Positions 7,592-60,509 of a stretch of 64,000 nucleotides of DNA are shown piece after piece; the first letter of the stretch is position 1, and every line of letters begins with the position of its first letter. The notes under the pieces were generated by a model, which was given only the letters and a program-made list of their open reading frames with translations, did no database searches and was not told where the DNA came from. Made by a program: the position numbers and the translations under genes. The DNA is from Tetracentron sinense (Eukaryota > Streptophyta > Magnoliopsida > Trochodendrales > Trochodendraceae). The DNA lies in assembly GCA_015143295.1 (NCBI GenBank), contig CM026571.1:9614501-9678500 (forward strand), given 5' to 3'.

Positions 7592-8051
7592 CAATGATAC
7601 CTGGTTCGCTCTGTTCGAATTTGGGTTCGCGGTTTGCAATTCGTCACTCTATAATGAACCTGTTTCGTTAAGGGTAGTATGAGATAGTTCGTTTTTCGGT
7701 TCGCTTAGATTCTTTAGTTGGGTTCGCTAATTTGGTTCTCTACTGAAGCATGTAAAACAAAATATGTATTATAAAAATATATGTTTTAAGCGGGTAAACA
7801 ATATATTACAAATACTTATTTGAAAAATAATAATAATAATAAATATATTTTTGTGAACTCAAAGTATAAATTTGTCAAAACTAATAAAAAATATCAGTGA
7901 ATTTTAATAAAAAATTAGACAAATTAAGATTATTTTAAACCCAATATGTGGTTCGCTCAATTTCACGAACTATAACGAACCGAACCACGAACCAGTTCAA
8001 GTTCGCTCAGTTCGTGGTTTGCTATAGCATATAGCGAACTTGGTAACCCTA
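7592..8051. mobile_element. Word-repeat hAT MITE, GGTTCGC/GCGAACC family (copy A)
   Basis: The 460-bp element is flanked by the 8-mer GTTTGAAG at 7584-7591 and 8052-8059. Left end CAATGATACC; right end, read inward on the other strand, TAGGGTTACC. The arms are full of GGTTCGC, TTCGCTC and their complements (GCGAACC, CACGAACC) and the middle is AT-rich. The 8-bp duplication and subterminal short-word repeats fit a non-autonomous hAT element. It sits about 0.5 kb upstream of the GAUT1-like ATG. Confidence 0.8.
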
Positions 8052-8059
8052 GTTTGAAG

Positions 8060-8346
8060 TCGGTTCGCAGTTTGTCACTGTAGAATGAATCGAGTTCGTT
8101 AGGGATAGGACGAGATAATTTATTTTTCGGTTCACTTAGGTTCTCTAGTTTGGTTCGCTACTTAAGCATGTAAAACAAAATGTTTATTTTATATTAAATT
8201 GTAAAAATAATTGTTTGAAAATTTTTAAAAAAAATAAACGGTTTGTGAACTCAAAGTATAAATTTGTTAAACCTAAAAAAAAATATTCCAAATCAAACTA
8301 GTTCGCTCGGTTCGCTATAGCATGTAGCAAATTTGGTGACCTTGCA
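8060..8346. mobile_element. Remainder of an older GGTTCGC-family MITE (copy B)
   Basis: Sequence after the copy A duplication continues as a second member of the same family (TCGGTTCGCAGTTTGTCACT..., CTAGTTTGGTTCGC..., ending GGTGACCTTG). Copy A was therefore inserted near the left end of copy B, a same-family nesting. The left end of copy B is presumably in the 7560-7583 flank. Confidence 0.65.
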
Positions 8347-8454
8347 TGGGAGTATCATTGAAGGACTTTTCTCTAATTTTAGCATGTCGCGGCATTACAC
8401 GATGAACAATTGTGCTCGTCTCTCTAACCATATAGTTCAACTTTTTTTGGTTTC

Positions 8455-8603
8455 ATTGGAGGCCACATGGACCTACAGGCTACACAGTGAGGGGTAACCC
8501 TCCTCCTTCCATAAACCTCCCAACCTTTATGTACGTGGGATTCGATACCAAGTATCTGATACGATGTTAAAGACTTTACCAACTAAACTAGTTGGCACCT
8601 TTC
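8455..8603 (-). mobile_element. tRNA-derived SINE fragment
   Basis: On the minus strand the A-box TAGTTTAGTTGG (8579-8590) matches TRGYNNARNNGG. It is followed at tRNA-like distance by a B-box-like GTATCGAATCC (8538-8548). This is the internal RNA polymerase III promoter layout of tRNA-derived SINEs. No cloverleaf of a working tRNA is present. The ends are approximate. Confidence 0.65.
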
Positions 8604-8653
8604 ATAGTTCACTTGATTATGGCACAATTTCATTTAATAATTAAGGGCTCCAT

Positions 8654-11265
8654 TGTAAGTTTTTTTGGCTCGAATTGCAGTGGGTGATCGATCGGCCACT
8701 GATGGCCGATCAATCGATGGACGCTGATGGTTTCTGGGAAATTCCTAAATATCAATTTTAGAGAGTTTTTAGCTTTGGGAAACTTCTATTTTGGTAGAGT
8801 TCGTTTCCTCTTGTGTTTGGAGTCTCTTTTGGGCTATAAAAGAGAGGCTTGGGGTTAGGGGTTGTAATGAGAAAAAGGTAAGATTGTCATAGCTAGAGTT
8901 TGAGTTGAAAGAACAAGAAGACTTTTGTAAGAGAGAGCATTGTGGGCTTTCCTTGAGGTTTGATTTTCGTTGTAGGTTCTTCTCTTTTGTATTCTTCTTT
9001 TGGATTAGTGAAGATTTTGGTGTGTTGTGACCATGGACGTAGGCATTTAGGCCGAACCACGTAAATCTTGCTTTGTGGTGTGTTTTCCTTTTTGCTGTAT
9101 TTATTTTCTCATTGTCGTTTATTCTATCCTAAGGGGTTTCCGCACAACAAACTGGTATCAAAGCTATTGGTTTAGAATGACAACAAAAGCTTCGAGTTCC
9201 ATATTCGAAATAGAGAAATTCGATGGAAGTAAAAACTTCAGGTTATGGTAAATAAAGGTTCGTGACTTGTTGATTCAACAAGGTCTGCACAAAGCTTTGA
9301 AGGGGAAGGATAAGAGGCCTGAAAATCTGAAGGAAGATGATTAGGAGGACTTCAATTGAAGGCGATTAGTGTGATTCATCTATGCTTAGCGGATGAGGTT
9401 CTATACAACATTCTCAAAGAAGAGATGGATTCAAGACTTTGGTTGAAGTTAGAGAGCTTCTACATGACGAAATCGCTCACTAACCGATTATACTTGAAGC
9501 AAAAGTTGTTTACACTTAAGATGGTAGAAGGTACGAAAATTTCTCATCATCTTAGTGAATTTAATAAGATTATTGCTGAATTAACAAGTATTGGTGTAAA
9601 ACTTGATGAAGAGGACAAAGCCCTACTCCTTATTACTTCCCTACCTCCTTCGTATGAGCACCTTCGTACGATGTTGATCTATGTAAAGGAGGATATCAAT
9701 TTGGAAGATGTTATTGTTGCCCTTCTTTCTAATGAGTTAAGAAATAATTCACAAAGTAGTGAAAGTCATTAACAGACTTTACTAATAGAATGGAAGAAGA
9801 GGAGTAACGGGTCTAAAAATGGGTCTAGATCATACAAGAATGTTGAGTGCTATTACTGTCATAAGAAATAGCATATAGCGAGATATTGTCGATTAAAGAA
9901 AAGTGAGAAGGAGAAGGAGGAGGAGGAGGAGGAAAGAAAATCATTCAGTACAGCTAATGTGGCTAATGAAGATTCTAAGGATCCAGATGATGATCCCATG
10001 GTCTTTTTGGTTACTACAAAGAATGGTTGGTCAAAGAACAAGTGGATTCTTGATTTTGGTTGTTCTCATCATGTTTGTCCAAATAGGGACTGGTTTGCTA
10101 CCTACAACTAGGTTGAAGACGACACTGTCTTAATAGGTAATAATACACTCTGTAAAATTCTTGGAATAGGAACAATCAAAATAAAAATGCACAATGGTGT
10201 AGTGAGGACATTGACGGGAGTGAGGCATGTTCCAGATCTGAAGAAAAAATTTGATCTCTTTGAGCTATTTAGACTCTCGGGGGTGCAGATTCTATATACA
10301 AGGTGGAGTGCTAAAAGTTTGAAAGGGAGTCTCAATTATAATGACAGGTAGAAGAAACAGGAACTTGTATGTGTTGTAAGGAAACACAGTTTTTGGTGGA
10401 GCATCTAAGGCAAAGAAAACTCCTGTTGTTCCTAATTCTAATCCGACAAAGGAGGCGCGAGTTTTGGGAAATAATGTGGGTTTGCATTTGAAGATGAAGG
10501 TTGCTGAAGATATGACATTCAACTTTAATGATGATTTGCAGGTGGAGTCGGAAACTCCACATCTTTCGCAATAGGGAGAAAGAATTTGGGTGAAGAAGTC
10601 TAAAAAATTATTTAGACTTACTCCAAGTTCAGCGAGGTAGAGCCTTGTATTCAATTTGGATTACGTTGGTGAAAATGAGATGACACATCATAGGGTGTTC
10701 GCGGGATTCTCGCCAAGGTCGAGATTTGTAAGTTTTTTTTGCTCGAATTGTAGTGGACGATCGATCGGCCAAACAGTGGCCGATCGATCGGTGGCTTGGG
10801 CGATCGATCGGCCACTGATGACCGATTGATCGGTGGACGCTGATGGTTTCCGGGAAATTCCTAAATATTAGTTTTAGAGAGTTTTTAGCATTAAGAGACT
10901 TCTATTTTGATAGGGTTTGTTTCCTCTTGTGTTTAGAGTCTCTTTTGGGCTATAAAAGAAAGGCTTGGGGTTAGGATTTGTAATGAGAAAAAAGTAAGAT
11001 TGTCATAGCTAGGGTTTGAGTTGAGAGAACAAGAAGACTTTTGTAAGAGAGAGCATTGTGGGCTTTCCTTTGGGTTTGATTTTCGTTGTGGGTTATTTTC
11101 TTTTGTATTATTCTCTTGGATTAATGAAGATTTTAGTGTGTTGTGACCGTGGACGTATGCATTTAGGCCGAACCACGTAAATCTTGTTTTGTGGTTTGTT
11201 TTCCTTTTTGCTATATTTATTTTCTCATTGTCGTTTATTCTATCCTAAAGGATTTCCGCACAACA
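8654..11265 (+). mobile_element. Reduced Copia LTR element with TSD tccat
   Basis: LTRs at 8654-9149 (496 bp) and 10727-11265 (539 bp), both TGTAAG...CACAACA, flanked by TCCAT at 8649-8653 and 11266-11270. A tRNA-Met-type primer site (TGGTATCAAAGC) follows the left LTR. The internal part (about 1.6 kb) shows a Copia gag (EIEKFDGS near its start), a CCHC-like region and a protease-like SHHV stretch. No integrase, reverse transcriptase or RNase H is recognisable, so it is a shortened, non-autonomous and broken fossil with several breaks. The LTRs have diverged moderately and one carries an extra hairpin segment, which suggests a middle-aged insertion. Confidence 0.9.
8680..8720. repeat. GATCGATCGGCC inverted repeats in Copia LTR
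   Basis: The left LTR holds GATCGATCGGCCACTGATGG followed by CCGATCAATCG. The right LTR (10755-10835) has two such hairpins, CGATCGATCGGCCA...TGGCCGATCGATCGG and a second copy. These are strong palindromes near the 5' end of the LTR, in the U3 part upstream of the TATA-like CTATAAA. Confidence 0.8.
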
Positions 11266-11317
11266 TCCATGATGTGATATATATGTAATCCGGCCCCCAG
11301 TTGATGGGTTGCGTATA

Positions 11318-11442
11318 GGAGTGGCAATCGGGTCGAGTTCGGGCTTCAAAGCCTATGACACATTATGTAAATGTGTTGAGTTTCAAGATAAACCTACTTA
11401 AAAATCACTAAAATTTTAGCTCATATCCAACCCATTGCCACA
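11318..11442. mobile_element. Short MITE with GGRGTGGCAAT ends
   Basis: Left AGGAGTGGCAATCGGGTCG and right CAACCCATTGCCACAT form terminal inverted repeats around about 90 bp. The interior shares 'cttcaaagcc' and 'catttacaaagg'-like stretches with 14573-14680 and 35411-35526. It is a hAT-like MITE family commonly seen with GGGGTGGCAAT ends; no convincing target duplication was seen. Confidence 0.65.
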
Positions 11443-11656
11443 TACGGAGGAGAAATGCTAAGCCTAGATGCGGTTCCAGTTTTAGTTCCAATTTCAGTTC
11501 ATGTTCATGTTCCCTTAAGAATTGGTATAGACCATAACTTCCTTTTGAAAATATTTGATTTCCTTAACATGTTGAGGAGTAGCAAGTAGTAACATGAGGT
11601 GTTGCGCTCACAATTAGAGTTTTTAGAAAGAAAAAAATTTCTTCATCTAGGGCTAG

Positions 11657-12650: not shown

Positions 12651-12654
12651 CTAA

Positions 12655-13415: not shown

Positions 13416-13416
13416 C

Positions 13417-14380: not shown

Positions 14381-14572
14381 ATAAGGGATCTAATATTTCT
14401 TTTTTGCATACAACACCACCAATAACACTTCGGATCAATCAAGTTATGTTGGAACATTTGTCTCAAACTTGTAAAAGATGCTCGATTTTTGTTTGTTTAT
14501 AATTCTTTTTGCAAAGTAAATTTAATGAGACAGGTGTTGCTTCTATACTATAATCGGATATTAGGGGTGGCA

Positions 14573-14680
14573 ATGAGCCGGTTTTGAACTTGAAATTTAG
14601 TGATTTTTGTATAGGTTCAACATGAAACCCGATACATTTACAAAGGCTTTAAAGCCCAAAATAGGTCTCATTGCCACCCA
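14573..14680. mobile_element. Short MITE with GGGGTGGCAAT ends
   Basis: TIRs AGGGGTGGCAATGAGCC and GGTCTCATTGCCACCC enclose a 108-bp element. It is the best-preserved of three family members in the window (also 11318-11442 and 35411-35526); all share the internal GGCTTTRAAGCCC and CATTTACAAAGG stretches. Confidence 0.75.
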
Positions 14681-15196: not shown

Positions 15197-15217
15197 AAGC
15201 GGAGAAGATATTGTAGA

Positions 15218-15808: not shown

Positions 15809-15815
15809 ATCTTTA

Positions 15816-15995: not shown

Positions 15996-16011
15996 TAATG
16001 GTAAAGATAAA

Positions 16012-22500: not shown

Positions 22501-25500
22501 TTTAGTCTCATGGCTTGAGAAAGAGACTTATCAAGTGGTCACTTGCTTTCAGTCTCAGATAGTTACAAGAACCTCAATTGTTTGGAACTTATGGTTTGCT
22601 GAGAGCAATTTTTTTTCTCAATTGGGTGATCATGTTTACTTAGAAATGCAGTAATGGTCTGTTAAAACTAGATCTGGGAGTATGTTAAACACTAAATATA
22701 CCTAAGTGATATCAAATATCTAAATGGCCTAAGATGTCAGCTTATGAAGCTAGTAAGCTTGTGAGTGTTCATACCACAGCGTTGGGTTCGAAACCCGTTT
22801 CACTGCTAAGTCACTAAATATCCCACTTGCCTACTGAATGTGTGTGTGTGTGAGGGAGGGAGGTTATAACACGTCTCAACCTGGTCTATTCATTTATTAA
22901 ATTTGAAAAATCTACATTAAAAATGTAGACCTTTTTGAAGAAACTTCCAAAATATCTGCAGTGTTGTGTTGGCAGTGAACATCCATTTCCATGTACATGT
23001 TAGTGTGTTTGAAGTTATTTGAACATATGTTCCCCACTTCCATCGAGGTAATTCTTGTTGATACTCTGTTCCATGTTTCCAAATGGACCAAATCCACTTG
23101 TTTCGTTGATTTAAAACCATAACAAGTTAGCTGGGTGATTTAGAATCTTAACAAGCTAGCAACGTTAATTATGAGTTTACATCATTGCTTTTGTCCTTGT
23201 CCCTTATTCTTTCTCCTGATGTTATTATTTATTCATAGTTTCTTCTTCGTATGCATAACCATTCTGTAGAAAGACGGGAGCGAAATTGTAGTTGAAGGTC
23301 CCCGGTGCAGTCTACGCACTAGAAAGGTATGTGTCATACTGCCTGCTTCCCTGTGGATTTATTCACTGCTTTATTTTTTCATTTATAAGGAGATAAATAT
23401 TGAGTGCTTGTTTTTTCTTTTAAGTGTTTGTCGACTAGCTCTTAGTTTTTCAAGGAAATCAGTTGAAATATATCTCTAAATTTATGGTGTATAGACGTAT
23501 AAATTATAGATGATTAGTTTGTTTGTGGGAAGTTGAGAAAATCATTATTGGAAAATTACACCTAGCAAGCATTAGATTAGTCTTTGTTTTTGTTATCTCT
23601 TAATGTATTTACTATTTTATCATTAATTAATGCCGAATTTGTATCATGCGTAAGTTAACCATCTAATAAAGCTTAATGGATCCAAGAGAAAACTTACATG
23701 CAGGTTGTGGTAGTCTTCCTTTAATCCACTTTCACATGGTAATATAGTGAAAATGTCTTTCTTCATAGAAGTGCAACTTTGGCCGGTCGGGTTGATTTGG
23801 GGCCAACCCAAGGTCAACCCTAAGATCAGAACAGTCAGCCAATGACCCAACCTAACCCAAGCTTCAGTTGAACCTGTATTCAAGTCAAGCTGAGCTGATT
23901 TGGCCAAGCCCGAGCTTGGCTTGAGCTCAAATGTTCAGGCTTGAGCTTGGCTTGAAAAAGCTTGATTGAGCTCGAGCTGAGTTAGCTCGAGTTGGCTCAA
24001 GCTTGATTCACAGGGTTATTTTGATCAATTTTTCATGATTTTAATAAAAAGCATTTATTATTAAATTACAATACAAGAAACTACACAAAATTAATTAATT
24101 TATATTTTGTACACAAAAATATAGAGAGTAGATAATCAGGGTTAGGGTTCTTGCTTTTAACTTCTCAACTTTCTTATGCTACTATTATCTACTAGACTTA
24201 TTTACTATAATGATAAATAAAATTAAAAAGTATTATTATTTATTAATATAATCATCATTACCAAAAAAAATTATAAATATATATATATAGGGTAATGATA
24301 GGAGTCACGCAATGCGTGAACTCTCTTAAAGTTCACGCAGGCCCAAATGATGGATATCCTTGGTAATAGATAAAAGGTATAAGGGCATTCTTGGAAATAT
24401 TGTTCTTAATTGATTTTATCAAATTGCCATCCCTATTTTAAGTAATTACAGAAGTGCCATATGCACCTTTGAAATTTAAGCTTGCGTGAAGGTTTTGGAG
24501 TTCACGCATTGCGTGAACTCTAGCACAACCCATATATATATATGTATAATATTTCGAGTCAAGCTCAAGCCAAATAGAGCCCTACCAAATCAAACAGGGT
24601 CTGGCTCGAGCTCGACTTGTTTAAACATTCGACCTCAAATAAAATCTTGGCTTGATTCCTTTGAGCTCAGCTTGAGCTTGGCTCGAACGAGCCGACGAGC
24701 CAAGCAGCTTGGCTTGAGTGCAGCTCTAGCTTCAACATATGGTGCTCAACCCAAGGCTCATTTCTCAACCCTTTCCCGACTTGGGTTTAGTCAGATTGGG
24801 CCGAGTATGTCAGGTTATTCTTGAATTAGCGAACCTTATATACTTATTTGGAGGAATGAAAGAAAGTTAAGAGGGAATTATGAGACTTGAACTCACAACC
24901 TTCCATAGTCACAACCATAGTTCAAAAACTTGAAAATTCGACTCGACTCGACTCGAAAGTTAGTCGGGTCGAGTTACTTGGAAAACTCGAAAAAAACTCG
25001 ATTGACTCGGAAATATATAAATAATATCCAACATAGATAAAAAAAAGTTCTACTGCAAAATAATTTCTACTACTGCAAACTTACAAATTAAAATCAGTCT
25101 TAAAGTAGTTGTAATGCTAAAAGCCTAAAATCAATCATAATTTCAGAAATTATAATATTATTGTTAATTTCAAAAATTAAAAGTAGACATGGTTGTAAAT
25201 TGTGATGTGAAAATCAATCCTAATTTCAATGCAATTGACATTTATGTCCTCAAATGACTCGGCCGAGTCTTTCGAGTCAAGTTACTCGGCCTGACTTGAC
25301 CGAGTCACTCGGCCTGACTCGACCGAGTCACTCGGGTAAAAGAGAGTCGAGTTTTTTAGCCGAGTCGAGTTACTCGGCCTGACTCGACCGAGTCACTCGG
25401 GCGAGTCGAGTCGACTCGCCTGACACAGAGTGACTCGACTCGGCCGAGTTTTGAGTCGACTCACTGAGTTTTTGTCAATGGTCACAACAAAGAGCCAAAG

Positions 25501-28500
25501 TCGGTACTGAACAAAACACCTCTAATGTTTTTCCAAGGCTCAACCCAACCTAAAGTCAAGTTCTATTTATTCAACCCTCGCCTGACACAAAGTGAAAATT
25601 TCACGCTCCCAGCCCATGCCCGCTCAGTGTTTAGGTTGGGCTCCATTTGGGCTGGATTGAGCCCACCCAAGTTGCATCCTATTTCTCCGTCTACATGTTA
25701 TGAGAATGAAGAAATGAAATCTACGTCTAATCAGTGTAATCTAATTTGGGTTGGATTGAGCCCACCAAAGTTGCATTCTTCTCTGTAGTCGGAACTATGC
25801 AGGAGGACATCAACTTTTATAATCTAATTTCAGTTCATTATCCTCACAAAGGAGTGGCACATCAAGTTGGAGATGAAAGAACATAAGAGCTTCTGGCTGG
25901 GTTGAGCCCTGAGAATCTGTTTTTATGTGCAGGTATTGAGTCCTGTGTGGCTTGAATGTAAGTAACAAGTCATCTTTTTTGTGGTATAGTAAACCAGAGT
26001 AAGAAGGTTAAACTGGATAATCATAAGAATGTGAAGGCACAATCTGCTGAACAGTTTTTGTTTACCACTTTACATTAGAAACTATTTGTGGAATTAATCA
26101 ACCACATGCCATATCAGTGAGGTTCAAATCCTCATCTGAGAAATCATCTCTCAATTTAATGTCAGTCATCTCGTCTCCATCATGGCCTTGCCTGAGCCCG
26201 GTCTCGATTCCAAAGCCCAAATTCTTAAAGCTTTTATGTCGTATATCTGCCAATCTGCACGAAGCAGATGTCATGTGAAATTTATGTTGTTGCTGTTCTG
26301 CATTTAGTGAGAATCACATACAATTATGAACAATTTACAATATCAAGTCTAACGATTATTGCAAGTCACTGAGGAACAAATGAATGACTAAAGTACCATT
26401 CTAAGATTTAGTTCTTTGACAAAGTTAATATCTGTTTTAGTTGAACTAATTAAATTCTAGGTTTGTGAATTATATTTTGAATCTTTGATTCCAGTGTAGT
26501 CAAGGCGTCTAGGCGATGCTAGGCGATTAGCCCCGGCTAGGCGAGGCGTTGCTTAGGCGATAAATTTAATATATATATATATATATATATAATTATATAT
26601 ATATCACGTATATATATAACATCCAAAAGACCAAAACTCCACACCCACATTCCACAAAAACATAAAATAAAAAGTCTATTACAATCATTCATCACATAAC
26701 CAAAGACATGTTAACATAGTGGAGTATTAAACATTTCAAAATCTAGGCAAAATACCCAAATTCGTGTCATTGTCCATGTATAATATTAGGCAGAGCTCCC
26801 TATGATTGCCCGGGGGGGCAGCGCCCCCCTGCGACGCATGAAGTGCGTCCGCAATCTAGGCCTAATAGGCCCAGATTGCGTCGAAAACAATATTTTTAGT
26901 GAAAAAAATTGATATTTTTAGTGAAAAAAATGATTTAGAATCTTATTACTACTTCATTACATGTTTTTATATTATTTATTAGGAAATTTTGGATTTTTTT
27001 AATGCAAAAAAAAATAAAAATAAAAATTTAACTAGGATCGCCCGCCTAGAGGAGCGCCTAGGCGACGCAGGCCCAAAATCGCCTAGGCGTCGCCTTGACT
27101 ACACTGTTTGATTCCCTGACTTGCTTGTAAAAAGTTCCTAGTGTGGGAAAGCCTGTTGTGTAGAACTTTGTACTTGGTGTATACTAAAAGATAGTATCAG
27201 TAACATTATATCTTGAATATTTTATCCTTTATGCGATATAAAATTGGATGTCTACCTGTTATTATTGCAGATTTGAAGATATTTTTATGGGAATGTGTGC
27301 TAGTGAAATAACTAATTAACGGTTAGCAGATGTCCTTGGATTAACTCTCAATGGTTGTTTTTCTTCCCATAGGTTTACAGTGATCTGTCTGTTGACTATT
27401 TCAAGATGCTTCTGTTGAATGTCCCAGCTGCTGTTATTGCACTGACATTGTAAGTAACATTCTGCATTTATATAGGTTTGAATTCACAAACTTGATAACC
27501 ATTTTAACAGAAATCTTGATTCCATAGCTATTGTTAATAGCATCTCATATAAATATGTATCCCCTAATATTAAACAATCTGATATCATTTGGCTTCTTGG
27601 CTCTATGTACCAAACGTATCCATAACCTTGTGAAATATCTTCTATGGACATTTCATAATTCATAATGACAGTTGAATTTTTCTTTCTGTTTAATAATTCA
27701 AAAATGTTCAGCAATAGCATCACACCTGTTTCCACTTATTTCTAGTTTTCTCAATCACTTTGAGAAGTGAGAACCCCCAATAATGTGATGTGCCCAGTAC
27801 TTGATTATCACCACTCAAATTGACTTTATGAAGTCTTGGAGTAAGTTGACTATATTATTGATTGAGTTTCTCATCAAGTCAACTCAAAATTTGAAGTCTT
27901 TGATGAGGTCCTATGCATTGCGTACATGTTTTGTGCATGTTAAGGATGTCAGCTTGCTAAGTTGGTAAAGTTGTTGGGTCTCGAAACTATGACTTGGGTT
28001 CAAAACCTATCCTTACCTGTTAACTCACAAACCATCATGCTTGCCTATAGTTGGAAGTGAAACCCTAGAGAGAGAGAGAGAGAGAGAGGAGAAGAAGAGA
28101 ATGAGTGAAAAGATTAGGGGCTGATTATTCTTTCTTATTAGTTATACTATTTGTAAAAGAAGATTACAATAAAGCCCTTACTAACATGATATGGTGTATC
28201 TACGCCCATATAATAATATCTCAACACACTCCCTCAAGCTGGACATAGATATCTATTATGTCCAGCTTGCTAAGAACCGATGTTAAGGTTGTATCGACAA
28301 CACCTTTAGTGAGAATATCAGCAAATTGGTTTTTGAATGTAACAAATAGTAAACACAAATTCTGAGAAATAGTCCGATCCATGATGAAGTGCCTGTCGAT
28401 GTCTGTGTTTAGTACAATCATGCTGAACTGGATTCTGAGTAATGTTAATGGATGCCTTGTTTTCACAGAACAATTTCATTGGAACATCTATCTTAATTCC

Positions 28501-31500: not shown

Positions 31501-33840
31501 GGTAGAGACCATATGCTTTACGACCATTCTCAATTATTTTTCTCGTCGCCAAGTACTGGTAGACACAATCGGTAGGAACTAGGAACAAAGGTTACACAAT
31601 TGTTAAGATTTTTAGTAATACTACTAATGGATAACAAGATTGTCGATAACTTTGAAACATGAAGAATATATGAAAGAGATAAGTTATTGGAAAGGTTGAC
31701 ATCTCCATTTTCAGAGATAGAAGAAATGGATTCGTCAGCAATCCTTAGCGATCCTTACCTTATCTCTTCCAGATTATAAAGTACAGGTAGAGAAAATAGA
31801 GGACAAACTAATCATGTGATCAGACGCACTTGAATCGATAATACAAGCTAGATTGGACGAGGAGTGACTTACAAAGTTAGCAGATGCATGAATAATTGAT
31901 TGTGCAAAGGGTGTGGAGGCTGAAGGACCTTCCAACTGGTTTAGAAGGCGACAGAGATGATTAGTGTCATCCGTAGCAAAAGTGTCTGAGATTGATGATG
32001 CACTTTCTGTAGGAGGGGCTGATAAAGGGGTACTGAAGGAAGGAGTCAGTCGTTGCGGTGTGGCCAGTAGGAGCATTCATTTGCTGTCTGAGACAGTTAT
32101 ACCTCGTCGATCTATAGTTACCAAGCCCCCTATTATACCCGTATAATACTTTTAAGGGGGTTGCCATTTAAAACGACACACTTTATCGAATACGTATTTT
32201 ACATGTATCGCCGTATAATGCACGTTTAATACACAGATTCTGTATTAAACACGTTTAATACGCGTATTGTTTTTCCTACTTTTGTCGTGTTAGACGAATA
32301 TTCCGTATTAAATGGTTGTCACTAGTTAGTATCTTGATTCATATTTATTTAAAATTATGGATTATTTTTTAATTTTACCATACTTTTGCCGTGTTTTTGT
32401 CATATAATACCTGTACTTCTCGAACAAATCATTGCCGTATTATATCCGTACTTGGTAACTATGCGTCAATCTGCCATGTAGATCCTAACAAGTCTCCTGA
32501 GTATGTCGAGTCTTCCCACAATGTTCACACTTTAGTTTGTCCTTATCATCGAAAGGTCTGTACTTCCTATTGGGGCCTTTCCCCCTTTTTTGACCATTAT
32601 AAGATGCAATAATGACTAAATGATTGTTGGTCAGAGTGGGCTACATAGCCTTTTTGTGGCTTATCTCACTTTGTACCATAGAATAGACTTGGTCCAAAGT
32701 AGAAAGTTCATCTCTTTCCAAATTTTGAACCTAGTTTACTCAAACTTAGGGTTCAGTCCAGCTAAGAAGTCGAAGATCCGATTTTGCTCTTCCTATTGCC
32801 GATGTGTATCCCCGTCTATATTAGTGTCTCACTGTATGACTTGTTAATGATTTAACTCTTCTGAAAGACCTTAGAGAGTAGAATAGTAAGTAGCTAAACT
32901 CTTATCCCCCTGTCGAAGAGTAGCAATATTTTCCTCAAATGATAGACCATGACAATGTTCTGACATTGGGAATAAGTTTTGGTAACTTTATCCCAAACCT
33001 CTTTCATTGTCCGAAGGAACAAAAAAATCTACTATTGTGTTAATGCGTGGTATTGAGTAACCATGACATCACCATAAGGTTTTCTTGTTCCCATTTGTCA
33101 TTCAACATATTTTTCATAGAAGGTTCATTCACCATGCCATTCAAGTAACCAAGATTTCATCTTCTGTCGATGTACATCTTCATGGATTGAGACCATTCCA
33201 GAAAATTAGTGTCATCTAGTAACTTTATAGTTGTGGTCTATACACTAGGATTATCACCATAATTGCTTGTGATAGACATCAAACTTGGATTCTTGGATAC
33301 TCTGGAAATCGTTTCAGAACCTCCTTAAGTTGACATTGGTAATAAATTTTTTTAGCAAGTTGTTGAATCTCCACGTATTCCCAGAATCTTATAGTTATGA
33401 GATTTGGAGCCTCAAAAAATTTCAATAAACAGCCCTAAAGAGGGAGAAGAAGCATCACCCCAACTTCAATTCTTCACGGAACTTTCCCAAAAGAGTTTAA
33501 GAAATTCTGAAATATTTAAAATTATCAATCAATACCAATTTTTCCCGGGAAAATAGCACGGACAAATCACACCAATCAGATTTTCAAAATTTGAAATTTT
33601 CTCACAAAACACCTCGAGTGAGAAAAAAACTCTCTAAACATCATCCAGAAATTCCAAAAAGAATTTTTTAAAAATCAGAATTTTCATACCCTTTAGAAAT
33701 TCAGATTTTGAAGGGGAGACTGTGTCCGTACGGTCTATTGACGTCAGCCGTATGGTCCTTTGTGTGTGTGTGTGGTTATTGACGTACTCCTTTGAAGCTC
33801 TTGATCGAGTAGAACTGTTCTGATACCACGTTGGAAGTGA

Positions 33841-33879: not shown

Positions 33880-36800
33880 CAGCGGCTGATTCCCCTTTCT
33901 TATTATTTACTACTTATAAAAGAAGATTACAATAATGCTCTTATTAACATGATGGGTGTATGTACACCCATAATAATAATATATCTCAACACCTATCAAA
34001 AAATGTTTCGTACATGTTTGGTACATCAGGTTGAGGTGTACACAAGCACACACATGCACACGCTCACACACATATAATGTACCACAGCGTGCAATCACTT
34101 AATTATGTCATAATATGTACCACAGCGTGAGGGTATGTGCTGTCAATGTCAAGTGTGTTACATAGTGATTAGGAATCTCTCGTTTTAGATTTGTAATAGA
34201 GTAAAATGTGCACACACACACGTATTTAATGTGCCACAGCATGCAATCACATAATTTACAGTGATATATGTACCACAGTATGCAATCACATAATTATCTC
34301 ATGATTTTATAGCATGACTGAAAGAAATATGACTACATAATAATCTGCAAGGGAATATGAATGAGGTACGTGCTGTCAAGCTCTACGAATCTTTCGTGTT
34401 AGATTTTTATTAGAGTAAGATGTGTGTGGAAGAATAATTAGATCATAGGTGTGTTTTATTTTATTCTTGGAAGGTTTTCTGTGGAATTTCTTCCAAATTT
34501 CATATCTTGTGTAAGTTTAAAAAGACTTTATTTTGTGTTATTCAAAGATATACTCGTGATGTTAACGTATTGTGATCAACTAACATTCTGATCGACTCCA
34601 TGGGAGAGGTTATGGCCTTAGTGGTCTCAACCAAGTCTTCAATAGATTCTGAGATGTTTTCTTCAGGAGACTTACGTTGTGTATAGGTTGAGCTATGGAA
34701 TTAAAATTTTATTTGAACTCAGCCTGCTCCCTCTATAAGGCTGAAGGGCATCCATCTCGACTAATGAAAAACTAAAAGAAAATGTTTGCATATATCTCGT
34801 TTCCAATATATAGCTACCATGTAACTGAAATGTATCAGCAAATTCTTAATATTAATTGCATCTATTTTGCTGTAAAATTTTATTGGAGAGTTAAAGCTCT
34901 AATTGAGTTCTATATGATGGTTCCTCTGGTGGTTGAATGCTCCATTTCTATTGTTTTTTTATATTTTTCCAACTTCATCCCCGTTAATAGCTTTCTGTGA
35001 AGCAGTTTGCCTTATGCTGTTTAAATATGTGAAAATGGTTCTTTGTAATGATCCTTAATGGGCTGGCGAAGTCTCATTCCTTAGTGACTAAAATGACAAG
35101 AATTGTATATTTTATGGATTCATATCCAACTTCGGTCAGAAGTTAAGGTTCTCATGCGCTTTCCTTACTTTTGATTCTAACAGGTTTTTTTTCCTGGATG
35201 ATTTGACTGGATTTGAAATCACATATCTTTTGGAGGTTAGTAATAATTCCTCTTCATATTCTATCCCTATTCATAAGGCAAAATGGTTAAATGCAATTTG
35301 TTATTGAAACTAATGTTGCTTGATAGGGTCTCATATTTCTCTAGTACTTTCCCATTGTTCAATCTTTGGATAAGTGTTAACTGGGTCCGGATTGACAGTC
35401 TGAAGGATTGGGTGACAATGGGCCGGGCTTGGGCTTGAATTTTGGTGATTTTTTAATAGGCCCTGCCCGAAGCCCAACACATTTACAAAGGCTTTGAAGC
35501 CCAAACTCGGCCTGATTGCCACCCCTACGGAGGAAGCAGGTCTGGTGCAACTGAACGATCTGGGAACTGGGCCCCTGGGTGGGTCATTCAGACAACTAAA
35601 CTGAAATTGCGAAAAAAAGGACAATGCCAGTGATTCGGCCAGTGTTACATTCTAACTGCTTGATTCAGGCGGTTCTTGTTGAACTGGATGGGTCCATGCC
35701 GAGGGAGGGAGGAAAAAAATTGTTTTCCCCCTTTTCTCTTTTTTCTTATTCTTTTAATATCCTAGTCATTTATTTATTCAGCTCGAGAAAGGGGAAGACG
35801 AGGAGGAAAGGAAGAAAGAAAAACGTATCTCATTTTTTTTCTGGATCTTTTAATAGTCTAGTCACTTGTTTGTTCAGCCAAAGTCATCGGGCAACCCAGG
35901 TCTGTTATACCTGACCCGTCCCCTTGGAGTCTCTGGTCCAGGTTTTAAAACATTGTTTTTGGATCATTGCTTTTTGATTGAAAAGTATTAGGTTTGGGTA
36001 TCTTTGGGTTGATGCATCATGGTTTATTTCCTCCATAAATCATTACTGAATGACACCGTGGTAGACTTATTTCCATCAGGTTGATCATCATAATTTGGGG
36101 ATTTGGGTGTTCCAAATAATTTAAAATCAATAATCTCTGTGGAGTTTTAAAATACCCATTCGATACTTTTTTGGTGTTGTGTCTACTTTTTCAACATCTT
36201 AAAGCAAGAAATTTGTTGCTTGAACTAGTTGCATAAGTAGCCGGGAAAAGCAATAACTCTATTGAGTCTGAAAATACCCACTCAATATTTTTCGGAGTAA
36301 AGTGAGAATGGTAGCTGGTTCATAAGCCTATAATGGTGTTTCTATTTCAATTCTTCTCTGGAAATGTGATCTATGGGCCCATAAAATTTCTGCAGTAGGA
36401 GTTCTCAGAAGTTAAACTTTAATGAAGAAATTCTGAGATAAGATTGATCAAAATCATATGTAATATTTGCTCCTTATATCTCTCACTACATACTTGTGGT
36501 ATCTATGCTCGTCATGTTTCTTACTATGCATTTTTTTAAACTTATCTTTCTTAATTTAATTTTTATAATCGTTCAAATGCAGCTTCCGGAGCCATTCAGT
36601 TTCATTTTTACATGGTTTGCTGCATTACCTCTCATATTTTGGCTAGCTCAATCACTCACAAATGTTATTGTGAAAGATTTTTTGATTTTGAAGGTAGCAA
36701 GCCCATCCTCGACTCTGAATTTTTTTTGAAAAATTGAAATTCCATATGATATTGATTTTTAGTGCATATTAACATATAAATTTATTTTCTAGGGCCCCTG

Positions 36801-40658: not shown

Positions 40659-43600
40659 CTATAGGATTGCCACATCCAAGTAATCTCCAATCTACAGAAT
40701 TGGATTAAATGTAAGTGTAATACAATCCAAATGAATCTAAGATATAGGGAGCCAATAAGAATATGCGATTTTACCTGGAAGCTAAGTTCGGCCAAGGCCC
40801 TGCTGTCATCTAGTCGTCTCCCATTTCCATAAGAATGAGTCATCCCGACCTTCACGAAGGCATTGCAAACACCACAATTATAGATCTTTGTTAAAGTTGT
40901 TCTATTTGTGTATGACTGTGCTATGTACATGCATGTATTGATATGATAAATGTATGTCTTTTAAATTATAATAGTTTGTTTCCTTTTGGTGGCAGGGGAT
41001 CAATAATGTTGAAGGGTTCTTCATGATGGGTGGTGGTGTCGTGAGATCACTGTAATGACAATGGTCTCACTGTAATGACAATGGTGGACTGAATTGTAGC
41101 AAACTAAAATTCTAAAAAAGTTCAGAGCCACATGAGATTTAACCGTAACTTGGGTTATAAACCAGGAAGAGCATAAATGCCACCACTTTGCTCTATTCAT
41201 GGGCAGCTCAGACTCCCTCCCTCATCGTTTGTTATTTTTTTTGTTTTATTAATATTTAGGTTGATGATTATCAAGGGTATCAGGCTGTTGGCATAATAAT
41301 GACATTCAACGGAAGCAGTACATGAATCAGGAAGAGCATAAAAAAATCCATGTACTTTTTTATTTGCCGATAAAGAAAAAGTACATGGACCTGGGTGAAA
41401 CAAATCCAATCCATCTGCATTAATATATGTAAACCACACAATTACATTTTCAAAGCAAATGAATGCATGGTCACCCTTTGTCTGGTTTTATGTCCACTGA
41501 CGCGTACAAATGAATGCAAAATCCCGAGAAAAAGGAGTACCAACTACCAACTACCACCTACCTGTCTCACCACATGACGGCCGTGTTTATCGGGATATAC
41601 AAACGCAAATGACAGTTTTGTATCTCTTCTCCTTGCTGCTGGGGCAACCTCTTTGACCTAAAATATTGAACCATAATCAACTATACAACCAATAAAATAA
41701 GCATGTCCAGAAATAAACATTGGAGAAAAAAGCATTGTACATACCAGATCAGTTAGCTCACGAAGAGTAGCATCTTTCCATGTGTAAATTTGGACTTCAT
41801 CCTTGGGCTCCTTGCCTCTCACTGCAAAATCTTCCATTGAATGATGACTTCCAACCTGCAAAAGATACAAAAGCAAATCACAGAGAGCACATGACTTTTG
41901 TCACATATATCTAGGTGTAATTTTTTTGTCTATTTCAATTAACTGGTGGGGTCATGCCAAACCCCACACCTCCTCTGGGTGTTTTTTCCCCCTTAAAAGA
42001 AAACCACATAGAAGTATCAAACATGCATACAACACTGGAATCATAGCTTCACAATTTAAAAATCATGTCCAGTGTACAAAAGACAGAACACCAATGGTGT
42101 CTGAACAATGATTTAGAACTAGTAACCAAAAGCTCAAACTATTGACTTATTTTGTTTCAAGCATTATTTGAACGGAAGTTGTGTTCAGGGTGGAAAAATC
42201 ACTTCTTAGAAAGCGTGCTTCTAACATGCTCTATTTAGTGGTCCAAGAGGGACATGTATTTAACATGATGGGATAGATCCTAGTCTACAACGTAAAGTGT
42301 AGATCCTGAGATGCGCCTAGTTCTCCACACATCTCATGTAAGGCAAAATATAAGGTATCATTGCCCATACAAATATAACGTGAGGATCATGTATTACAAT
42401 CATAGTATCAAAACTTGGCTAGTCGACTCGACTCGGCCAAGGTTTCAAGTCGAGTTTGGGGCAAAACTCGGTTTTGACACTGAAAACCGAGTAACTCGCC
42501 CGAGTTGTTGCATATTTTTTTAAAACAAAAAATTGAGTAAAATGCCTACTCAATTGATTAAATTATGTTTTTTTCTTTTTTTTTAACACACCCCACTCAC
42601 TCTTAAGTATAAATACAAAACAAAAAGGGGGTGTTTAGTATATATTAAATTATATATATCATTTTAGGCATGTTTTATCATTAATTTTGAATTTATACCA
42701 TGCATATAGTATTAGAAAAATATTATATATGTCCGAGTTTTAGGTGTCATTACTCGGACGAGTTTTGCTCGAGTTTCCGAATTGACTCTACTCGGCAAGT
42801 TTCCGAGTTGAGTCGAGTTTTCGGGTTTTAAAACACTGATTACAATTAATCAAACAGTATAAATAAGACATGAATTAAAATAAATGAAGTAATAAACAAA
42901 GTAATAAACAAAGATCACAGAATGACTAATTTCCATAGAAAAAACAATTTCATTTCTAAGTTGTGGGTGGACGGGAGTTGGAAGGAGGGGAAGGATGAGA
43001 TTGAAGATAGCGTGGTTTCCTTTTACAAAGATTTGTACATGGAAAAAGAGGGTTGGCACCCAAAGTTGGATGGTCTTACCTTTGATGGGCTGTCCCCGGA
43101 TCAGAGGTCAGCCCTAGAGGCTCCTTTTGAGGAGGAGATTCTTCGAGTGATTCGAAGTTTGGCTATTGATAAGGCTCCTGGGCTAGATGGTTTTTCTTTG
43201 GAATTTTATAGAAGTTGTTGGGAGATTGTAGGTCAAGACTTCATGGATGTGATGGGGGAACTGTTTGAAAAAGGGCAGTTTGACAGAGTCATGAATAGCA
43301 CTTTTCTCATCTTAATTCCAAAGAAGGAGGGATAGTGGACCTTAAAGACTTTCGGCCATTTAACCTAGTGAGTAGTACGTACAAGATTCTCTCAAAGGTA
43401 TTGGCTTCTCGTCTCAAGGAGGTGATGGTAGATCTTATCTCCCCTCAGCAGAGTGCGTTTGTAGAAGAGCGTCAAATTTTAGAGAGCATTCTTATTGCGA
43501 ATGAGTGCATAGATGCAAGGGTGAGATCCAAGGCTCCGGGAATCATGTGTAAGGTGGATATGGAGAAAGCTTATGATCACATCAATTGGGAGTTTGTGCT

Positions 43601-46600
43601 TTATGTGCTAGGCAGGATGGCTTTGGTTTGAAGTGGTGGCTTTGGATGCGATCCTGTATGACCTCGGTTTCTTATTCCATCTTGATTACTGGAAGTTCAG
43701 TGGGTTATTTCTCTAGCTCTAGAGGTTTGCAACAAGGGGATCCTCTTTCACCCTTTCTCTTTGTGCTTGCTTCGGAGGCTCTGAGCCGGTTGTTGTCTAA
43801 AGCAGAGGGTCTTCTCTTTGAGGGTTTTTGGGTTGGTGCTTCAAGACTGAGGATTTCTCACCTCCAATTTGCAGATGATACTCTTATTTTTGGGCAGGCT
43901 TCAAGAAGGGACCTTCTTTACCTTAGATGTATTCTAAGATACTTTGAAGCAGTGTCTGGTCTTCGTGTTAATTTAGCCAAATCCGAGCTCTTTAGGATAG
44001 GTGTTGTCCCTATCATGGATCATCTGGCCATCTGTCTAGGATGTCGAGTGGGCTCTCTTCCCTCGGTGTATTTGGGAATGCCGTTGGGGGTTAGCTTTAA
44101 AGATAAATCGGTGTGGAATCTTGTGCTAGATCGTTTCGCCAAGAGATTATCAGGATGGAAATCGTCCCACTTATCGAAAGAAGGAAAACTTATTCTTATT
44201 CATAGCACCTTATGTGGCCTTCCCACTTTCTTCATGTCGACGCTCACCATCCCTCAATCTGTGGCTAAATCTATTGAGAAGCTTCAAAGGGAGTTACTGT
44301 GGGGCGCAAGAGGAGATTCAAATAAATATCATTTAGTTGCATGGCAACAGATGTGCAGGTCCAAGGCAGCTGGGGGTTTGAATCTGAAGCCGTTGAGCTT
44401 AGTGAATAAAGCCTTATTAGGGAAGTGAGTGTGGAGATTCGGAGATGAGAGAGAGAGAGAGAGAGTTTGTGGCGTGCGGCGATAGTGGCCAAATACGGGG
44501 ACACATCGTGTTGGATCCCAAAGGGGGTTAGAGGCTCTCACGGGATGGGCTTTTGGAAGGGGATCATGGCTAATGCAAATTTGGTAGTGCCTTATTTTCG
44601 TTTCAGTGCGGGGAGAGGGTTGGAGATCAGGTTCTGGAAAGATCTTTGGTCGGGGTCTTCCAGATTAATGGATGACTATGGTAATCTAGCTACAAACAAG
44701 GATGCCTCAATGGAGGATTCTTATGAGATAAATATTTCGGGGGTAGTGTGGTGCCCGAGGATGAGGCGGAGCCTTAATGACTGGGAAATTGATGATATGT
44801 CCAGCCTTTTGGAGCGCATTTTCTCGTCGGTCCTAAGCTTAGAGGATTGGGATTGTAGGATGTGGTCCAGGAGCAGCCAAGGCAAGTTCTCGGTTAAATC
44901 ACTGTTACTGTCGATTTCCCCTATATGGAGGGAGTTTTTTCCTCATAAAGTTGTGTGGAATCTGGGTATCCCTTTCAAAGTCTCTTTCTTCTTATGGACT
45001 GCTTCCTTGAACAAAATTCTGATTTGTGAGCATCTGCAACATAGAGGTTGGAGTTTGGCCAACCGATGTTTTATGTGTCTTCAGGCGGAAGAGGAGGTGG
45101 ACCATCTTCTTCTGCATTGCCCCGTGGTGCAAGAGCTATGGGGTTATTTCCTATCCCGATTAGGGGTAGCATGGGTTTTTAATTCTTCCCTTCTCAAATT
45201 CTTAGCTTGTTGGTCCTGGGAGTGCGGGGCAGGTGCTAGAGAGGTGATTTGGGGGGTTCCTCTTGGAGCTATTCTTTGGTCTTGTTGGCAAGAAAGAAAT
45301 CTTAGAGTTTTTGAGAACGTTGTTTCTTCCGTTCTTCGGATTTGCGATCGCATAAAGATGATAGTCATGAAGTGGGTCGGGCTGCATGGTAGTAGGGAGG
45401 AATTGCGGGGGCTTTTGTATTAATTGTTTCCTTCCTAGGGCTAGGTCCATGCTCTCTTCCTCCCGGCACTTGGGTTTATAACCTTGTAAGCTCATTTTCT
45501 GGGGGTTTTTCTTGTACTTATTCTCTTGTTTTATCTAATGCATTGCTTTATCGATCAAAATAAAAATAAAATCAAAGGTATGGATAGTAGTAACTCAAAG
45601 AAACAAAATGCAAGTTCAAATCCAAGTCCAAAGGTATGGATAGTAGTAGTTCAAAGAAAAACATAACAGTCCGTGGCGAATTCAAGTCCGAAACCGTGTC
45701 GACACTTAATGAGCACACCACTTGCCTACATACTCGAAGAGTCCGCACAACATTGTTTTTTTTTTTTTTTTAATCGATAATGAGACATAAATATATAAAT
45801 AGGAAATAAACAATACTACATAGGCATAAGGCTTACAAGAGTTCACAAGGTCGTGAACTGAAAATCAAGAAAGAAGAAAGAAACAATCAAAGCCTGGAGA
45901 CCCTAGGTGGCTGAACCACAACACTGTTGAAGGTGTGATTCATCTCTTAATCAAGTATTACTTTATTCATATTTCAACATGATTGATCGGATAAAATATA
46001 GATACTAATATTCGACCCTAAACATGTGCAATGTAATTGCAATTTAAGAGAATAAGGTGACCATGGCACATTCTTTTCTTCTTTATGGAATGAATTGGGA
46101 ACATTGTGTGAACACCCCATTTTTACACCCCCAAAACCCTTTTATTAATTTAATTTAATTTAATTTAATTTTGTTTTGTGAGCCTGAGTGTTGAGAGAGA
46201 GAGAGAGAGAGACAGAGAGGCCCAAGATCATTTCCATAAACCCTTGATTAAAACCCTAAAATCCCAAAGCCTTAGACCCATGTTTCCAAGCCCAAGACCA
46301 AGATCTATTATTTAAGGCCCAAAGCCCACAATCCTAAAGCCACCATGGCCCATTACTAGCGCCTATATAAAGCAAGAGATAAGGTTAATCCAGAATCCCA
46401 TTCGTATGAGAGCAACAGCTCCCATCTCACTCCCGTTTTCTTCTTCTCCCACTTCTTTTTTTTTATTTCTTTTTTCTGTTTACCGCAACAACAGGGAGTT
46501 GCTCAATCGATCAGCCACACCTCCGATCGTCCATCAACACCGGCGTCTGCAACTCCACCAGCATTCAGTTCTCTCTCCCTACGAACTCCATCATCCATAG

Positions 46601-52600: not shown

Positions 52601-55600
52601 CTAGAGGCAAAAAAGGGAAATACAAAAATTGATCAACTTCGCATGCATGAGTAAAAACCGGCAACGGCCTCATTGCGTAAAAATTATGCGATCCCCAGAC
52701 TTGGTCATTCCAAAGGTAAAAAAAGGAAAAGTTGAAAGCAACAAGCATTCACTAGGAGCATCATCGAGATCAAGACAAAGCACTTTCGGGCATCATCTGA
52801 AGAATCTTATCGTCAGAGTGGACTAAGTGTCTCTTGTTCGTAGCAAGGCCCAATTCAGCATATGTCAAGGATTAAAGATCAACTTTACCACTGACACAGC
52901 ATGACGGGTCATATTTGCTTAGCATCATGTTCTACCCTTGAGGACAAAATTCAATCGCCTTGTGAAGGTGATCACCTTATTAAATCCAATGAGCAAAGAG
53001 AGCATTTGCATTCGAAAATTTCGGTTGTCTTCAAAATAACCAACCAAAATCAGGATCTTGATATTCGTATGAAGTCAATCTCACTCAAACCGTAGGGCAT
53101 TTCCAAGAAATATCTCATCATCCTCCATTTGGTCATCAAGGTCATAGTGTCGGTTATGTCTCTTGGCTTGGTCAAATCAATCTCATCTCAACAACTGTTC
53201 GGGAGCCAAACAACCTCGATTGGAAGCAGGAGCAAGGTCAAGAACATCTGAAATCTCTGACAAGCATGAAACTGGTATCTAAGAGCGAGTCATATACTTA
53301 GCCTATCATCAATCTGTATCTTCCATTAGTACTGCATTGGTTCAATCCAGGTCTAGTCGCATCATCCGCGCATTTGCATAAGTTGAGTCTTGCATTGTCC
53401 TGCTTCTCATACATGTTATACATGCATACCATTCAAGTCCAGTCAATACACAGTCAACACACTACACTTTAGTTAACACTAGTTGCATACATTCGTTGGC
53501 TTAATCGAGTCGCACACTTTGCACTCTTGTAGCACTCAGTTGCACACATTTGATGGGGTCGCACACATTACACTCTAGTTGCACCCATCTTGCACACACT
53601 CATTTGCACACTATAGTTGTACATATCGCACTAGTTACACCCATCTTGCACACTCAAGTTGCACACACTCAATCGAGTCGCACACATCACACTTTTACTA
53701 CAACATTTGAGTTACACATTTTGCACTCTTGCTGCACTCAATCGCACACATTTAATGGGGTCGCACACATTTTGCACTCTTGCTGCACTCAGTTGCACAC
53801 ACTTAATCGAGTCGCACATATTGCACTTTAGTTGCACACAGATTGCTCATACTCATTTGTACACTCAAGTTGCACACACTCAATCGAGTCACACATATTG
53901 TACCTAACTGTATTCCAGTTGCACACACTCAATCGAGTCATATTTCAGCCACTTTGTCACTTAGCACAGATGTAACTCCACATACACCTCACCATATTTG
54001 CATCATCATGCATTTCTCTCAAGTCGCGTACATGCCAAGCTAGGTAAGACCTCGAAGTCTCTAGCGCAAGGCTCGCACCAAACACTTTTCATCAGTCAGA
54101 CTACCTTCATCCATTTTGTTGGTTGACATTGAAGGCGATGTCACTCTTATTTTGTTGGTTGACATTCAAGGCGATGTCACCATCAATCCTCTCGGTTGAC
54201 ATTGAAGGCGATGTCACCCTCCCATCTTGTTGGTTGACATTGAAGGCAATGTCACCATCAATCTTTTCGGTTGACATTGAAGGCGATGTCACCCTTCCAT
54301 CTTGTTGGTTGACATTCAAGGCGATGTCACCATCAATCCTTTCGGTTGACATCGAAGGTGATGTCACCATCACTCTTTTTGTTGGTTGACATTCAAGGCG
54401 ATGTCACCATCAATCATTTCGGTTGACATTCAAGGCGATGTCACCATCAATCCTTTCGGTTGACATTCAAGGCGATGTCACCCTCCCATCTTGTTGGTTG
54501 ACATTCAAGGCGATGTCACCATCAATCCTTTCAGTTGACATTGAAGGCGATGTCACCCTCACTCTTTTTGTTGGTTGACATTCAAGGCGATGTCACCATC
54601 AATCCTTTCGGTTGACATTCAAGGAGATGTCACTATCTTTTTCGTTGGTTGACGTTCAAGGCGATGTCACCATCAATCCTTTCGGTTGACATTCAAGGCG
54701 ATGTCACCATCTATCTTGTTGGTTGACATTCAAGGCGATGTCACCATCAATCCTTTGGTTGACATTCAAGGCGATGTCACCATCAATCCTTTCGGTTGAC
54801 ATTCAAGGCGATGTCACCATCTATCTTGTTGGTTGACATTCAAGGCGATGTCACCATCAATCCTTTCGGTTGACGTTCAAGGCGATGTTACCATTTATCT
54901 CATTGGTTGACATTCAAGGCGATGTCACCATCAATCCTTTCAGTTGACATTGAAGGCGATGTCACTCCCCATCTCGTTGGTTGACATTCAAGGCGATGTC
55001 CGCTCCCCATCTCGTCGGTTGACATTCAAGGCGATGTTATCCTCTCTTTTGTCGGTTGACATTGAAGGCGATGTCATCCTCTCTTTTGTCGGTTGACATT
55101 GAAGGCGATGTCACCATCAATCCCCTCGCTCCGGACACTATATCAGTCTCCATGCAGTAGGGTTCGCAAGCTCCCTTCAATCCATGTTTCGGTTACATCC
55201 ATTTTCCCCAACAATCCATCAATCCATGGTCCATGTACACCCATTTTCCCCAGCAGTCCTCCGCAATGAGCTCATAAACTACTATCCATCACTCCATCTA
55301 TTGGTTTTGGCAAGTTTAACTAGGATTATAATTTATTTTCCCTTTCTTTCATATTTGATTTTCATAGGCTTTTTCAGGGTTTTCGTGTGTAAAAATGACG
55401 ATGTTTCAGTCTTTGTCGTTCAATTGCCAACACTCTCCGACAAAGAGGGGCAACTGTGAACACCCCATTTTTACACCCCCAAAATCCTTTTATTAATTTA
55501 ATTTAATTTTGTTTTGTGAGCCTTTGAGTGTTGAGAGAGAGAGAGAGAGAGAGAGGCCCACGATCATTTCCATAAACCCTTGATTAAAACCCTAAAATCC

Positions 55601-59885: not shown

Positions 59886-60053
59886 CTTTTCCTTTCCTCT
59901 CTGTTTGCACTTCACACACTTTGTTCTTTAATAAAGCCTTGCATGAATCATGTGTTAGTTGAGGCATAAGGGTTTTGGAAAGGAAAATGTTCAAGGGTCA
60001 CGCCCCCCCTTTGTTAACACCCACACTCTGCTTAGGATTCACTCACTTCTAGG
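59886..60053 (-). promoter_or_regulatory. SAP18 5' leader and upstream region
   Basis: Directly upstream of the SAP18 ATG on the minus strand; only about 170 bp separate the start codon from the hAT MITE at 60054. No certain TATA box was seen. Confidence 0.4.
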
Positions 60054-60509
60054 GCAACGTTTGAAATTTGGTTGAAATTTTGCGAAATTTTGGGTTCGGC
60101 CAACCCCAATGACATCGAAATTGGGCTTATTTCGAAAATCAGATTTTGGTTGAAATTTCGGAAATTTCAAGTTGAAATTTCGGATTTCGAAGATTTCAGA
60201 ATTTCGGCAGAAATTTGATTTTTTATTTTTAAATAAGTTTTTTTAATTAAAATTTTGAAATATTTACTGAAATTTCAAAAATTTATATATTAATTTTAAA
60301 AATAAAATAATAATATTTATATAAATATATAAAATTTTAATAAAATAATATTTTTTAACATATATATATATATTAATAAAAAATATATATAATGAATAAA
60401 ATATTAATATTTTAGATTTCGAAATTTCGCCAAAATCCCGCAATTTTTCGGGATTTCAGTTCGGGTTGGCTGGCTGAAATCGTCAAAAATTTCGAAATTA
60501 AAAACCTTG
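60054..60509. mobile_element. Word-repeat hAT-like MITE, GAAATTTCG family
   Basis: Ends CAACGTTTGAAATTTGG and (other strand) CAAGGTTTTTAATTTCG, flanked by TTCTAGGG (60046-60053) and CCCTAGGG (60510-60517), matching at 6 of 8 positions. Arms repeat GAAATTTCGG, TTGAAATTTC and CGAAATTTCGCC, all self-complementary. AT-rich middle; 456 bp. Sits 0.17 kb upstream of the SAP18 start codon. Confidence 0.75.

Follow-up and report, generated by a model that had tools for sequence, protein, structure and literature searches.

Short hAT-type elements in Tetracentron sinense with two-part ends: a similar tip followed by an array of one family-specific word

Short repeats lying behind the terminal tip are said to be present in most hAT transposons (PMC10368747). 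For example, the Ac transposase is reported to bind subterminal AAACGG repeats (PMC3260210), and AAGT is the subterminal motif of both Tol2 and Hermes, in which the repeats behind the tip are bound by several BED domains of a multimer (PMC10368747). Similarly, Herves has the subterminal motif CG/AATTCAT, for which binding has been shown (PMC3143072), and Kat1 has the motif AATTCA, where a role for the repeats is the authors' speculation and DNA binding by Kat1 is described as non-specific (PMC4763223). In the maize account, Ds1 elements are described as having little in common with Ac beyond the tip and a few hexamers, and Ds-like elements that possess tips and AAACGG repeats were, when tested, not excised by Ac (PMC3260210). 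As these Ds-like elements did not move and Ds1 elements without the hexamer can be mobile, such words are, on that account, neither shown to be sufficient nor always needed.

Here we describe seven elements from six families in one stretch of 64,000 bp (C21:9614501-9678500; hereafter the window) of the 1.16-Gb genome of Tetracentron sinense. They are a new set of a known kind of element (Ac/Ds, Tol2, Hermes). Like maize Ac/Ds, they are short and nonautonomous, with a hAT tip (11 bp in maize) and 8-bp target duplications (PMC3260210); like Hermes and Tol2, they have numerous short repeats of either orientation directly behind the tip (PMC10368747); and, as in Herves and Kat1, each family has its own short subterminal motif (PMC3143072, PMC4763223). 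In contrast to Ac/Ds, where one family has one word and binding is reported (PMC3260210), nine words, six in MITE families and three beside transposase genes, are described here in one genome. Unlike the AAGT bound in Hermes and Tol2 (PMC10368747), the words are other sequences and are candidate sites only, and they also differ from the motifs of Herves, which is from an animal, and Kat1, which is from a yeast (PMC3143072, PMC4763223). As nonautonomous hAT elements with subterminal repeats they are not out of the ordinary, but the set is unusually legible, since this number of words is found in one genome behind similar tips. The six tip strings had no match in the literature searched, which has little bearing on novelty as most journals and repeat databases lay outside that search.

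The original prediction had proposed seven hAT-like insertions whose arms are packed with a family word, and all seven exist, each with hAT-like termini and with lengths of 351-860 bp. The GGTTCGC-family nonautonomous hAT element (7592..8051; tips CAATGATACCTG and TAGGGTTACCAA) has the 8/8 duplication GTTTGAAG, and 8/8 duplications also flank ACTCG element a (24916..25480; GTCACAAC; 20 ACTCG in its arms), ACTCG element b (42401..42838; ATTACAAT), which has a tip similar to that of element a and the same word, and the AGGCG element (26492..27106; TTTGATTC), which has the tip CAGTGTAGTCAA at both ends. The duplication of the TAATACG element (32113..32463; tips TATAGTTACCAA/CATAGTTACCAA) is 7/8, and those of the GAGCTTGGC-family element (23869..24728; tips starting TGAACCTG and TAGAGCTG; duplication GCTTCAGT/GCTTCAAC) and of the GAAATTTCG element (60055..60509; tips CAACGTTTGAAA/CAAGGTTTTTAA) are 6/8 in the window. 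The 8-bp duplications claimed for all seven are therefore exact in four, 7/8 in one and only 6/8 in two. Four elements keep the ends first given to them, and the others shift by 1-10 bp (27116 to 27106, 60054 to 60055, and 23868-24727 to 23869-24728).

Two further features had gone unmentioned in that prediction. Firstly, the 7592 element is inserted in an older member of its own family (7556..8344; duplication TTTGGGAG/CATGGGAG, 6/8), and because it sits in this copy the GGTTCGC words run past its own duplication; a second GGTTCGC-family piece adjoining the 7592 element turned up in the genome search too. Secondly, a 242-bp element (24290..24531) with terminal repeats of ~34 bp, starting GGGTAATGATAG / GGGTTGTGCTAG, is nested in an AT repeat inside the 23869 element, whose own length is consequently ~618 bp. 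From its ends, the nested element is a candidate Mutator-like element.

Elsewhere in the window, two inverted-repeat stretches of ~120 bp (14562-14679 and ~35410-35527), with TAGGGGTGGCAAT-type ends and GGGCTT/AAGCCC arms, are possibly further hAT MITEs, and a word-dense stretch at 61400-62540 (TAACCA/TTAACCATGGTTAA) contains a CAAGGTTTAGG start close to 61446 and could represent another hAT-like family. The window also contains a minisatellite at 54117-55123 (27 copies of a 37-bp unit, TGTCGGTTGACATTCAAGGCGATGTCACCATCAATCC) and, at 42874-45420 and 9341-9769, reverse-transcriptase frames (RVT_1, zf-RVT) and a copia-type gag frame. An Rfam search of the window and a phage similarity search with 20 kb of it gave no match.

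The density of words in the arms was compared with chance by counting each family word on both strands of the first and last 150 bp and in 1000 dinucleotide shuffles of the arms. The core words (GTTCG, AGCTTG, ACTCG twice, AGGCG, TAATAC and AATTTCG) occurred at counts that 0/1000 shuffles reached in 7/7 elements, in agreement with the predicted word-packed arms. The full words, as first given, were equally beyond all 1000 shuffles in 6/7 elements, the exception being TAATACG, which was weak (41/1000) although its core TAATAC was reached by 0/1000. Similarly, the commonest 6-mer of the arms was reached by 0/300 shuffles in 6/7 elements and by 2/300 for TAATACG. Per element, the arms held 6-20 core words and the cores 0-2, but 8 in one ACTCG element; the 2-kb flanks held 0-3, but 7 for GGTTCGC, because that element lies in another copy of its own family. 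The shuffle, palindrome and tip-identity tests used 24727 as the right end of the GAGCTTGGC element, one base short, which slightly lowers tip identity. A block-shuffled word scan of the window was set aside, its control being too noisy.

Words occurred in both orientations in 15/17 arms, counting window and transposase-gene ends together, with irregular spacing, and were in a single orientation only in the left arms of the window GGTTCGC and AGGCG elements. They clustered within ~150-200 bp of the tips, as in the Ac/Hermes type. This arrangement bears on a reading in which the transposase of these hAT MITEs binds not to the visible word but to a shorter or other motif nearby, the arrays having arisen by local duplication in the arms. 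Hermes offers the strongest caution in this respect, as the repeat first proposed there from its repetition, GTGGC, was not the BED site, which binding data indicate to be AAGT (PMC10368747); in addition, the right arm of ACTCG seems, by eye, to be locally duplicated in parts. However, words in both orientations at irregular intervals are not in tandem, the word follows the transposase lineage, and word-rich arms are common to elements with unrelated interiors (both described below), and we regard this reading as unlikely.

The words had also been described as partly palindromic throughout, which did not hold: perfect palindromes of at least 8 bp were above shuffles in only 2/7 elements. Single palindromes such as CGCCTAGGCG are present in arms, and with an excess in just 2/7 elements self-complementarity is not a general property. 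That the arrays serve some other role, as a hairpin or foldback, a promoter or enhancer, or a source of small RNAs, would fit the excess in those two elements, but 5/7 window elements and the three transposase arms tested lack any such excess, and the arrays are placed at tips and downstream of transposase genes of the matching lineage, making this explanation highly improbable.

Copies of the six families were found throughout the genome, with at least 40 scored places per family (the window's own included) from 1,748-2,628 first-look candidates. The best 8-10 copies per family were examined, 58 in total with the window's own six loci; the GAGCTTGGC query was 23868-24320 only, and the ACTCG search covered copies of element a rather than those of element b separately. 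Duplications of at least 7/8 were present in 42/58 copies, again with the window's own included, at 10/10 for GGTTCGC and AGGCG, 8/10 for TAATACG, 7/10 for GAAATTTCG (two at one site), 5/8 for ACTCG and 2/10 for GAGCTTGGC; support for the GAGCTTGGC family thus comes from 2/10 resolved copies, and its copies L086 and L088 have 8/8 duplications. Of the loci sampled, L071 and L078 share one site, as do L034 and L037. In the 42 resolved copies, arms had 21-52 words per kb, compared with 0-12 for cores and 0.5-1.2 for flanks, and arms were denser than flanks in 42/42; excluded from this count were the 16/58 loci in which no duplication of 7/8 or better was resolved, among them L004 (7/8, but with no proper tip). 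Copies across the genome therefore have the 8-bp duplications and word-dense arms anticipated for them, and the sole array extending past its duplication is explained by nested insertion.

When 340 kb of sequence were searched de novo, 19 elements combined tips matching at 11/12 or better with duplications of at least 7/8, versus 0 in each of six shifted controls; this sequence was largely obtained through matches to the six families, and the result confirms structure without estimating frequency. One de novo candidate, L075:842-1325, has hAT-like tips at 11/12 and an 8/8 duplication. Two others, L063:2675-2910 and L027:1270-2277, have 8/8 duplications and tips of only 9/12, a level at which shifted controls also give 1-5 candidates; the L027 candidate encloses the AGGCG copy. 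Within the window alone, a scan for tips and duplications gave no excess at tips of at least 8/11 (51 versus 33-56 in eight shifted controls) and a weak excess at 9/11 or better (18 versus 4-13 in shifted controls); this is slender evidence on its own, and a clear excess is obtained once the genome copies are pooled in. For the AGGCG family, the tip and first word together mark 3,787 ends genome-wide at up to one mismatch, versus 0 for the reversed pattern, and among the first 100 ends listed there are many facing pairs ~460-800 bp apart and a few at 1.2-7 kb. The window elements are short and of high copy number, as MITEs are.

The ends of these elements consist of two parts. Among 17 ends, several of them typed as family consensus, A is at position 2 in 17/17 and G at position 5 in 16/17, and the actual window ends fit this YA..G type except for the diverged left end of the 23869 element (TGAACC). 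By their 8-bp duplications and YA..G tips, the six window families are nonautonomous hAT elements, as the original prediction had proposed. Identity between families (17 ends, nine words) is 0.47 at positions 1-12, or 0.52 with typed, partly consensus ends, and falls to 0.28 at positions 13-24 and 0.25 at positions 25-60, so that beyond the tip it is near chance. In 9/17 ends the first word starts no later than position 14, namely in those of all three transposase lineages, in the two ends each of AGGCG and GGTTCGC, and in one end each of GAAATTTCG and GAGCTTGGC; in the rest it starts at positions 18-32. Interiors, in contrast, can be unrelated where ends are common, as in the two ACTCG elements, whose arms match and whose cores give no significant match (best E 0.03), and in the two AGGCG end types. 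For example, an AGGCG end at C1:28658556 has ~68 bp in common with the MITE arm and then diverges (600 bases read).

Similar ends are found beside hAT transposase genes in the same genome. A profile search with PF05699 (the hAT dimerisation domain) gave at least 150 scored hits, and the best 30 were examined as 3.2-kb loci, 12 of them on the minus strand, with the downstream side read by gene strand; the evidence from these genes covers their 3' ends only. In 24/30 loci the hAT tip TTG.CA.CC[CT]TA (inward TAGGG.TG.CAA) lies downstream of the gene, and in all 24 the 250 bp preceding the tip contain a dense array of one word, which is AGGGC in 20 loci (8-19 times), CGGAT in three (9-17 times) and GGGGCGG in one (6 times). 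Outside the ends of the loci the tip motif is rare, with 7 hits when both strands of 265 kb are counted, three of these being one site sampled thrice. The three words correspond to three transposase lineages, 39-45% identical over the aligned stretch compared, with 0 exceptions among the 24 loci; as many lineage-1 loci are near copies, the independent cases are three lineages and not 24. The 12-bp tip TAGGGCTGTCAA is present at 12/20 lineage-1 (AGGGC) ends and 3/3 lineage-2 (CGGAT) ends, the remaining lineage-1 ends having G, or once T, at tip position 6. One identical 12-bp tip is hence followed by quite different words in lineages 1 and 2, whose transposases are 39-44% identical. Literature matches listed for this 12-mer were unrelated by title.

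The six loci of the 30 without a recognised end were L031, L040, L044, L053, L055 and L056, though L055 has an AGGGCC cluster. Downstream of the hAT gene in L044 there is a CAAGGTTCTAAATGTCGATATCG start followed by repeated ATATCG, a tip like that of the GAAATTTCG family with another word. L045 contains a partial BED finger (E 0.0033; 17.9 bits, below the cut-off of 20.6) that is cut by the end of the locus.

The lineage-1 end also occurs beside hAT hits beyond the sampled loci. The exact lineage-1 pattern TAGGGSTGTCAAAGGGC occurs at 796 places genome-wide and 0 times reversed, and on C1 and C2 the lineage-1 tip and word lie within 2 kb downstream, in the correct orientation, of 7/25 listed PF05699 hits, with 0 in the wrong orientation and 0.02 expected; six of the seven are at 440-501 bp. 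Four of these seven are outside the 30 loci, and two of the four (3606510, 3551164) are probably one duplicated stretch. The lineage-2 end TAGGGCTGTCAACGGATCGG, with one mismatch allowed, occurs at 1,531 places and 0 times reversed. As this is far above the three transposase loci, most of its bearers are presumably nonautonomous or broken, and since no MITE-sized facing pairs are present among the places listed, its two ends must differ.

A transposase gene bearing one of the window words was not found among the 30 hAT loci and the listed DUF659 and PF05699 hits, hAT/DUF659 genes being abundant in the genome. Arrays of GTTCGC, AGCTTGGC, GACTCG, TAGGCG, TAATACG or AAATTTCG were absent from the 30 hAT loci, where whole-locus counts were 0-2 apart from 4 GACTCG in L034 and L037, the two being a single site. 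The proposal of one hAT lineage per word is therefore partly supported: for three other words, the word follows the lineage at 24/30 transposase loci, and the expected autonomous relatives carrying the six window words did not appear. At one place an AGGCG end is 3.2 kb away from a hAT gene of DUF659 type (chance ~5% by hand estimate), and the pairing was unsupported: the genome has 61 places where this type of end occurs, and at none of the other 60 is there a listed hAT hit within 10 kb, although one of them is 11 kb from a listed hit, on the outer side. Proximity was compared by eye, against the best 150 of 1,783 DUF659 and 150 of 1,709 PF05699 candidates. The locus of this lead (L089) has the AGGCG end with a different interior, and L090, which covers 900 bases on the other side of the DUF659 gene, contains no tip, no AGGCG and no array, and one CGCCT.

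The similarity of tips across families, and the identical tip of two transposase lineages, could also mean that one or a few hAT transposases reading only the common 12-bp tip moved all families, with the words as passengers that tag ancestry; some maize Ds1 elements are indeed mobile without the hexamer (PMC3260210). However, passenger arms should not remain word-rich once interiors have been replaced, and the maize hexamer is elsewhere in that account described as necessary for transposition (PMC3260210), and we consider it distinctly unlikely that the tip was all that was read. As the transposase genes end in the same kind of tip and array as the MITEs, each word is probably a mark of the enzyme by which an element is moved.

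The account we favour, and hold to be reasonably probable, is that the six families are hAT MITEs with two-part ends, in which the word array is a putative BED landing patch that sets transposase specificity. Each end has a hAT-like tip of ~12 bp (roughly YA..G..nncAA) followed by a patch of ~150 bp of one family word. The tip would be the site cut by the catalytic core, and the array would present multiple landing sites to the many BED zinc fingers that a transposase multimer has, such that the word would decide which transposase mobilises which MITE and the interior would be free to change. It is possible, and we suggest it only tentatively, that hAT ends are modular in a stricter sense, combining a near-generic 12-bp cleavage tip with an exchangeable, lineage-specific array, and that specificity resides in the word alone.

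If the word is a lineage address, it would account for a given MITE family being mobilised by one transposase and not by its neighbour, and any genome rich in hAT MITEs would list transposase binding words. Two lineages that can have an identical tip and different words provide a ready-made test of tip versus word. Under the modular reading, lineages with one tip and different words would make the recognition code of BED fingers readable from genome sequence, and paired transposase genes would allow this code to be solved by comparison.
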